NCBI GenBank assembly: GCA_001873135.1
Contig: MNYP01000143.1
Coordinates: 1 to 43,939 of the forward strand
Length of the DNA: 43,939 bases
Origin: Helicobacteraceae bacterium CG2_30_36_10
Lineage (GTDB): Bacteria > Campylobacterota > Campylobacteria > Campylobacterales > Sulfurimonadaceae
Reading direction: 5' to 3'
Below, piece after piece: positions 2,479 through 16,062 of the stretch. How positions within the stretch are numbered: position 1 is the stretch's first letter; each line of letters begins with the position of its first letter. The notes below the pieces were generated by a model. That model saw only the letters and a program-made list of their open reading frames with translations. It searched no databases and was not told the DNA's origin. Position numbers and translations under genes: made by a program.

Positions 2479-2489
2479 GGCATGTGGAA
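2479..2489 (+). repeat. GGCATGTGGAA motif, exact
   Basis: Exact 11-mer; overlaps the ATG start of the RluA-type gene. Confidence 0.9.
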
Positions 2490-4477: not shown

Positions 4478-4505
4478 TGGCATGTGGATTGGTTTCCACA
4501 TGCCA
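4478..4505. repeat. Inverted pair of the GGCATGTGGAA motif
   Basis: TGGCATGTGGA-ttggtt-TCCACATGCCA, perfect 11-bp arms, between hemE 3' end and radical SAM gene start. Confidence 0.9.
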
Positions 4506-13986: not shown

Positions 13987-14011
13987 TTTCCACATGTCCG
14001 GCATGTGGAAA
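13987..14011. repeat. Inverted pair of the GGCATGTGGAA motif
   Basis: TTTCCACATG-tccgg-CATGTGGAAA, 10-bp arms, 32 nt after glnK. Confidence 0.9.
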
Positions 14012-14104: not shown

Positions 14105-15280
14105 ATGTTAGAAGCTGATTTTAAATACATTATAGACACTTTCTTCACACTCTTCTCAATGGTTTTAATAATTTTTATGGTTCCCGGGTTTGCTATGCTT
14201 GAAGCAGGGCTTGTCCGTACAAAGAATGTCTCAAGTGTTTTAACTATAAACATAATGATATACGCAGTTGCCTCATTGGCTTTTTTACTTATAGGATACA
14301 AGCTGGCATTTGGAAGTTGGGACAACTCTAATATGAGTATATGGGCTGCATTTTTATTCCAGATGGCATTTGTCGGTAAAACCATAAATATTATGAGTGG
14401 CGGCGTTAGTGAAAGAGTCAGAATTATTCCTCTAGCTATTTTTGCCGTGATTATGGGCGGATTAATCTATCCAACCGTAGTAAATATCGGCTGGGGAACT
14501 GACATAATTGCCGGTACTTTTTTAGATATTGATATACATGATTTAGCAGGTTCTACAATTATTCACTCAACGGGCGGTTGGGCACTGCTAGCTGCTATTT
14601 TTATTATTGGTCCGCGTAAAGGGCGTTATGTTCAAGGCGGCATTCGAGTTATTCCTGCTTCAAATATTCCTCTTGTCGTTTTGGGTACATTTTTACTTTG
14701 GATAGGCTGGTTTGGTTTTAACGGCGGAAGTGTCGGCTCAATTTCAAGTATAGAAAATGCAAATATGGTTGCAAAAACTATTATGAACACCAACACGGCA
14801 GGACTCTCAGGTGCACTTATAGCTGGAATGCTTATGTACATTCGATACAGACTTTTTGATATCACTATGATATTAAACGGTGCCTTAGGCGGACTTGTGG
14901 CAATTACGGCCGGTCCTGATTTGTACGATATGTATACGCCTATTTTAATCGGTGCTATCGGCGGTGCTTTGGTCGTTTTTGCTGTACCTGTTTTTGATAA
15001 ACTCAAACTCGATGACCCGGTTGGTGCTTTGTCAGTTCACCTTGTTAACGGTATTTGGGGAACTTTAGCTGTTGGGTTATTTGTGGAGAGTGTCTCTTTT
15101 ACGGCACAGTTAAAAGGAGTAGCAGTAGTCGCTGTTTTTGCCTTTAGCGTCTCTTTTGGAGTTATATATATTATCAATATCTTTAGTAAATTCAGAGCCA
15201 AAGACGAGGCTCAGCTAGAGGGTATGGATATTAATGAGTGTGGCGTTGAAGCGTATCCTGAATTTAGAAGGGCTATATGA
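14105..15280 (+). CDS. Ammonium transporter AmtB (second, divergent copy)
   Basis: VPGFAMLEAGLVRTKNV, DLAGSTIIHSTGGWALL, GALSVHLVNGIWGTLAVGLF. Confidence 0.93.
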   Translation: MLEADFKYIIDTFFTLFSMVLIIFMVPGFAMLEAGLVRTKNVSSVLTINIMIYAVASLAFLLIGYKLAFGSWDNSNMSIWAAFLFQMAFVGKTINIMSGGVSERVRIIPLAIFAVIMGGLIYPTVVNIGWGTDIIAGTFLDIDIHDLAGSTIIHSTGGWALLAAIFIIGPRKGRYVQGGIRVIPASNIPLVVLGTFLLWIGWFGFNGGSVGSISSIENANMVAKTIMNTNTAGLSGALIAGMLMYIRYRLFDITMILNGALGGLVAITAGPDLYDMYTPILIGAIGGALVVFAVPVFDKLKLDDPVGALSVHLVNGIWGTLAVGLFVESVSFTAQLKGVAVVAVFAFSVSFGVIYIINIFSKFRAKDEAQLEGMDINECGVEAYPEFRRAI

Positions 15281-15292
15281 CATATATATTCT

Positions 15293-15322
15293 TGGCATGT
15301 GCAAATTTATTTGCACATGCCA
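15293..15322. repeat. Variant inverted pair of the GGCATGTGGAA motif
   Basis: TGGCATGTGCAAA-ttta-TTTGCACATGCCA, 13-bp perfect arms, 12 nt after the second amtB. Confidence 0.9.
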
Positions 15323-15363: not shown

Positions 15364-16062
15364 ATGATTAGACACAGCAGCTCCTTTTTTATCTCTCTTA
15401 TGATTCACTTAGTTTTATTGATGTTAGTGTTTTATTCATGGAAAAAAATGCCGTCATTTGAAGAGGAAAAAATTCAAGAAAATATATCTGTTAAGTTATG
15501 CTGTGTGGTTGAAAAAAAGCCGGAAGTAAAAGTTATGCAAAAACCCACTCCGCTTCGAAAAGAAGAGATAAAAAAAGTAGTTCCAAAAGAAGTTGTAAAA
15601 AAAGTTATAGTAATAAAAAAAGAGGTACCGCAGTTAGTTGCACCCGTTGTAAAGGAAAAAGTGGAGCTTGTCCTAGAACAAAAAAAAGAAGAAGTGCAAG
15701 AGGCAGTTAAAGAGTCACAAGCGACAGAGGCAGAATCCGACCAAAAAGAGATTCCACATGCCAAAGAAGTGACAATAGCACAGGAATATGTAAACGAGCA
15801 TATAAAGCGTTTGGTCAGACTTTTACAAGAGAACCTTTACTACCCAAGGTCTGCTAGAAAAAGAGGCATTGAAGGCTCTGTTACGGTAAGATTTGTACTC
15901 AAAAAAGATGCCACCGTCGATTCTATAGAAGTTCTCTCATCAAACAGTGAAATACTCTCACGTGCCGCCGTACAAACTATAGAAAATTTGTCAGGAAAAT
16001 TTCCAAGACCAAAAGAAGAACTTGTTTTGAATGTGCCTATAAAGTATGATTTGAAAAGATGA
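15364..16062 (+). CDS. tonB: TonB-like energy transducer
   Basis: N-terminal TM, K/E/V/P-rich linker, C-terminal YYPRSARKRGIEGSVTVRFVLKKDATVDSIEVLSSN. Confidence 0.88.
   Translation: MIRHSSSFFISLMIHLVLLMLVFYSWKKMPSFEEEKIQENISVKLCCVVEKKPEVKVMQKPTPLRKEEIKKVVPKEVVKKVIVIKKEVPQLVAPVVKEKVELVLEQKKEEVQEAVKESQATEAESDQKEIPHAKEVTIAQEYVNEHIKRLVRLLQENLYYPRSARKRGIEGSVTVRFVLKKDATVDSIEVLSSNSEILSRAAVQTIENLSGKFPRPKEELVLNVPIKYDLKR
15752..15762 (-). repeat. GGCATGTGGAA motif, exact
   Basis: TTCCACATGCC on + strand, within tonB. Confidence 0.9.

Follow-up and report, generated by a model that had tools for sequence, protein, structure and literature searches.

The amtB gene of the Sulfurimonas genome represented by assembly GCA_001873135.1 (contig MNYP01000143.1) encodes an ammonium transporter and is followed, about 40 nt ahead of a gene of TonB type in the same direction, by an inverted repeat made from two copies of an 11-letter word. 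In the window, i.e., the whole 43,939-nt stretch of DNA analysed, GGCATGTGCAA and its reverse complement TTGCACATGCC form together with the flanking T/A and the inner A/T 13 perfect pairs closed by a 4-nt loop, with a calculated stability of -20.5 kcal/mol (z = -7.1 against shuffles). Both arms carry C at position 9, where the parent word GGCATGTGGAA has G. Hence, the observation in the preliminary description of a matched G-to-C change leaving the stem intact is exact. The parent word occurs 10 times exactly in the window, and allowing for up to one mismatch GGCATGTGSAA gives 20 hits against 1.1 expected. Although the hairpin is stable, its tail AUUUAAAACC does not contain a U-run and a simple terminator scan did not find a terminator-like site at this position, so that classification as an intrinsic terminator was rejected.

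Features of the window around the amtB hairpin and further copies of the word.
Position	Strand	Feature	Remarks
15294..15304	+	Word copy GGCATGTGCAA, left arm	C at position 9
15311..15321	-	Second, inverted word copy (TTGCACATGCC on +), right arm	Same C variant
15293..15322	+	13-bp stem with UUUA loop, inferred 3' hairpin of the amtB transcript	No T-run after it by the simple terminator scan
14105..15280	+	Ammonium transporter gene (AmtB family, PF00909)	Directly upstream; stem starts 13 nt after its stop codon
15364..16062	+	TonB C-terminal-domain protein (PF03544)	Downstream gene in the same direction
14000..14010	+	Single word GGCATGTGGAA upstream of amtB	A word also lies about 105-140 nt upstream of amtB in G033, G050, G052 and G054
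15752..15762	-	Single word GGCATGTGGAA	Inside the tonB-like gene
4479..4504	.	Another convergent pair (GGCATGTGGAT / TTCCACATGCC)	Arms not identical
2479..2489	+	Single word GGCATGTGGAA	
2906..2916	-	Single word GGCATGTGGAA	
3547..3557	+	Single word GGCATGTGGAA	
19987..19997	-	Single word GGCATGTGGAA	
22000..22010	+	Single word GGCATGTGGAA	
22167..22177	+	Single word GGCATGTGGAA	
26201..26211	+	Single word GGCATGTGGAA	

Throughout the 1.99-Mb genome (167 contigs), 666 exact copies of GGCATGTGSAA were counted, whereas the reversed control gave none. In 326 kb of sampled sequence, GGCATGTGGAA is the most over-represented 11-mer, exceeding the expectation from an order-3 Markov model about 1200-fold. 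The extended consensus is TTGGCATGTGGAAAT, with GGCATGTG as the firm inner core and position 9 being mostly G and in about 14% C. GGCATGTGCAA alone is present in 93 copies (reversed control 0, about 0.7 expected under the Markov model), and C at position 9 is the commonest one-base variant of the inner word in six of the word-rich genomes examined, G000, G066, G033, G049, G050 and G061 (G numbers designate genomes of the comparison set, C numbers their contigs and L numbers individual sequences; G049 corresponds to the marine rock biofilm MAG mb.55). In contrast, word-rich G030 does not show GGCATGTGCAA in 220 kb (L147-L151, L214-L219), its commonest variant being AGCATGTGGA. The proposal that the C form might be found only in pairs is wrong, as 12 of the 93 copies sit in close matched pairs (6 pairs) and 9 more in close mismatched pairs, while the remaining ones have no close inverted partner. 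The words are evenly distributed over both strands (326 forward, 340 reverse), about 70% lie inside ORFs, and their density is about three times higher between ORFs.

Of 135 Sulfurimonas genomes, eight possess 331-1032 copies and eleven intermediate numbers (22-163), whereas the rest are at background level. In a sample of 399 genomes from 87 genera of the order, the 370 genomes of other genera have only 0-6 copies. A looser pattern, TGGCATGTGNNNT, revealed that four of the intermediate genomes (G052, G054, G095 and G108) are rich in the inner word but with another tail, indicating a second dialect (GGGATT type, in contrast to the GAA type of the eight word-rich genomes). Its consensus of about TTGGCATGTGGGATT is read from a 33-kb sample of one genome only, G054 (L178-L180, L024; Sulfurimonas sp. 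AUK118), while G052, G095 and G108 show the same excess of core over GAA-type words. At sites alignable between the sampled own sequence and six word-rich genomes, 57 of 94 own words are still words, although control 10-mers of the same G+C are identical at only 5-7% of sites (about 6%). In stark contrast, only 1 of 40 is kept in four low-copy genomes. In an AmtB tree, low-copy G132 and G067 group with word-rich G066, and low-copy G025 and G131 with the own genome, so that the low numbers look like loss, albeit this tree is based on a single gene with moderate support and several weak forks.

For relating word abundance to competence, comEC was searched and found in the own genome and in 28 of 29 other genomes tested, and pseudopilins are encoded within about 10 kb of it in most genomes where both were located. 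Full-length or contig-cut comEC was found in 11 of 12 word-rich or dialect-2 genomes, the exception being G052 at 71% completeness. A comEC match was not found in low-copy G132 (99% complete), and in low-copy G067 the gene is split into an N-terminal and a C-terminal part about 8 kb apart (L289 and L291, G067:C15:14716-24113) with foreign ORFs at both joints, as from a mobile insertion. However, G025 and G131 have few words yet a full-length comEC. Consequently, loss of comEC is not a general accompaniment of low copy number and does not alone explain it, and while maintenance and decay of the word are clear, their link to competence is only partial. Candidates for a receptor are the comEC-linked pseudopilins. 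A type II secretion operon that looks complete by eye was seen in word-rich genomes (L209:4733-14894 in G033:C1, also G000:C42, G030:C44, G049:C26, G066:C54/C38, and in G132:C2). Its pseudopilus was rejected as the obligate uptake device, since GspG is present in all eight GAA-type genomes but also in many genomes without the word, being patchy elsewhere in the genus, and was not found in the four dialect-2 genomes.

Hundreds of short dispersed copies are also typical of Chi-like, segregation or nucleoid-protein sites. However, the words do not show polarity with GC skew over stretches of 60-280 kb, unlike Chi or segregation motifs. Together with the frequent inverted pairs, the strong intergenic enrichment, the patchy presence within one genus with dialects and the loss in two relatives with comEC missing or interrupted, this makes such a role quite unlikely, and a Chi or segregation site was rejected. 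Even less probable is a mobile palindromic repeat family (REP/MITE-like) spreading by copying with the hairpin as the unit. In the own genome and in relatives, convergent pairs strongly favor spacings of 6 and 2 nt, so that AAAT/ATTT flanks complete or overlap in the stem, and some pairs look alike across genomes. Nevertheless, most copies are single, flanks beyond about 4 nt are not conserved, 70% of the copies lie inside ORFs and many sites are orthologous and gapless in relatives, and this reading was rejected.

In the own genome, 27 convergent and about 27 divergent close pairs were found, where about two of each would be expected by arithmetic from copy number (about 54 in total against about 3-4 expected). 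Among the convergent pairs, position 9 is G/G in 18, C with non-C in five, C/C in one (the pair behind amtB) and other in three, whereas the divergent pairs comprise 18 G/G, four C/G and five C/C. Matched C/C is thus at chance level for convergent pairs (1 against 0.4-0.5 expected), with five of the six C-containing ones breaking the stem at position 9, but in excess for divergent pairs (5 against 1.7 expected, p = 0.003) and, carried by the latter, for all inverted pairs together (6 against 2.0 expected, p = 0.002). In sampled relatives, two matched and eight mixed inverted pairs were counted. Genome-wide, mismatched pairs are as common as matched ones. Therefore, a perfect stem is not generally required, and the interpretation in the preliminary description, a compensatory change or motif dialect with the hairpin itself under selection, is only partly supported: the C form is a true variant and the locus is conserved as a hairpin by position, but that one matched pair by itself implies selection on the hairpin is not supported. 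The idea of selection on the hairpin holds for this locus, not as a rule. The uptake-sequence-like behavior of the word had not been recognized there. Chance remains possible for the individual C/C pair, as C at position 9 is a common, nearly equivalent form of the word, so that a few pairs will have it in both arms without any selection on the stem. This is, however, considered rather unlikely in view of the excess over all inverted pairs and of the comparison across relatives at this locus.

Directly behind amtB, a stem-loop is present in most Sulfurimonas examined, in many of them with unrelated sequence, while G025 and several non-word relatives do not show a convincing hairpin. In G033, G132 and G030, it is a word pair with G in both arms, in G061 one arm is decayed, and in low-copy G131 the arms have changed to TTAGCATGTGGA and TCTACATGCTAA, so that the word is gone but the stem remains. 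Over these six sequences, three of 12 stem pairs show changes on both sides, including C-G here for G-C in relatives, whereas sliding the partner gives at most one. Due to the small number of sequences, the shuffle control is only moderately strong, with 15 of 500 shuffles reaching three two-sided pairs. In G132, without a comEC match, six of seven sampled words are in inverted pairs (L175:350, L176:19319, L136:2692), compared to 14-31% in word-rich genomes. Although resting on seven words, two of which are from this very locus, this is as expected if hairpins are kept for another reason, and single words seem to have decayed first. Alternatively, the second arm might have been copied from the first by template switching within the imperfect palindrome (quasipalindrome correction) or by recombination with another C/C element, making the match mutational and not selected. 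This would explain an excess of matched pairs next to persisting mixed ones, and a near-identical C/C hairpin, GGCATGTGCAAATTGATTTGCACATGCC, sits in a different place in word-rich G063 (G063:C89:6109-6142; L145, L243). However, such copying does not explain the hairpin behind amtB in relatives with unrelated arm sequences or the surviving stem in G131, and is thus possible for the individual pair but unlikely.

Taken together, the word is, with reasonable though not high confidence, most likely a self-recognition DNA uptake sequence of a Sulfurimonas sub-lineage. In this view, a surface receptor of the competence machinery would prefer DNA carrying it, and preferential import followed by recombination would build up and maintain hundreds of copies. 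Inverted pairs would have been recruited as transcript 3' hairpins, and at the amtB locus a stem-loop is retained while its sequence turns over, being formed by two words in word-rich species. The C/C pair is best read as a matched replacement of the G/G seen in relatives, with C at position 9 being tolerated as a word and the second change keeping the stem. While the analysis directly demonstrates abundance, strand balance, dialects, maintenance at orthologous sites, loss in low-copy relatives, the presence of comEC and nearby pseudopilins as well as G/G in relatives, C/C here and the conserved hairpin position, receptor binding and uptake itself, the order of events and the job of the hairpin (3' end or termination between amtB and the tonB-like gene) are inferred from sequence alone.

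The genomic profile resembles the DNA uptake sequence (DUS) of Neisseriaceae and its dialects (Frye et al., 2013, PMC3630211; Treangen et al., 2008, PMC2397512), likewise a short word in hundreds to thousands of copies on both strands with frequent close inverted pairs forming stem-loops at transcript ends, several dialects and maintenance in the conserved genome. However, the inner core GGCATGTG is unrelated, the phylum is another one (Campylobacterota) and a ComP-type receptor was not identified. The uptake signal sequence (USS) of Pasteurellaceae (PMC1626085) is also an over-represented short word linked to competence and present in a group of related species, but differs in sequence and phylum, and for the Sulfurimonas word uptake specificity is only inferred. 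High copy number, strand balance, intergenic enrichment, close inverted pairs, dialects, maintenance at orthologous sites and decay in some relatives with damaged competence genes are together the profile of the DUS and USS. Within the same phylum, uptake discrimination in Campylobacter jejuni by methylated RAATTY (described in PMC10046745) relies on methylation of a short common site and not on an enriched dispersed word, and is thus a different principle of recognition. In the open-licence literature, not covering most subscription journals, no paper holding both 'uptake sequence' and Campylobacterota and none giving the word as an uptake sequence was found. Self-specific uptake words are described from two groups only, Neisseria and Pasteurellaceae being called unique in this (Frye et al., 2013). 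Somewhat more likely than not, the Sulfurimonas word might represent a third, independently evolved case and the first outside Pseudomonadota, with at least two dialects and with inverted pairs that were exapted as mRNA 3' hairpins, are kept by compensatory change and outlive the loss of competence. Such a case in free-living sulfur oxidizers of another phylum would make the question of why uptake words evolve testable by comparison, as word-rich, word-poor and comEC-broken related species lie in one genus. Moreover, the paired hairpins would allow selection on the word and selection on RNA structure to be separated, because the hairpin appears to survive where the word's first role has gone. 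Besides, a record titled Desulfosporosinus (L071, DYPS01000057.1) carries a Campylobacterota-type AmtB at 69% identity and is probably mislabelled or a mixed bin.
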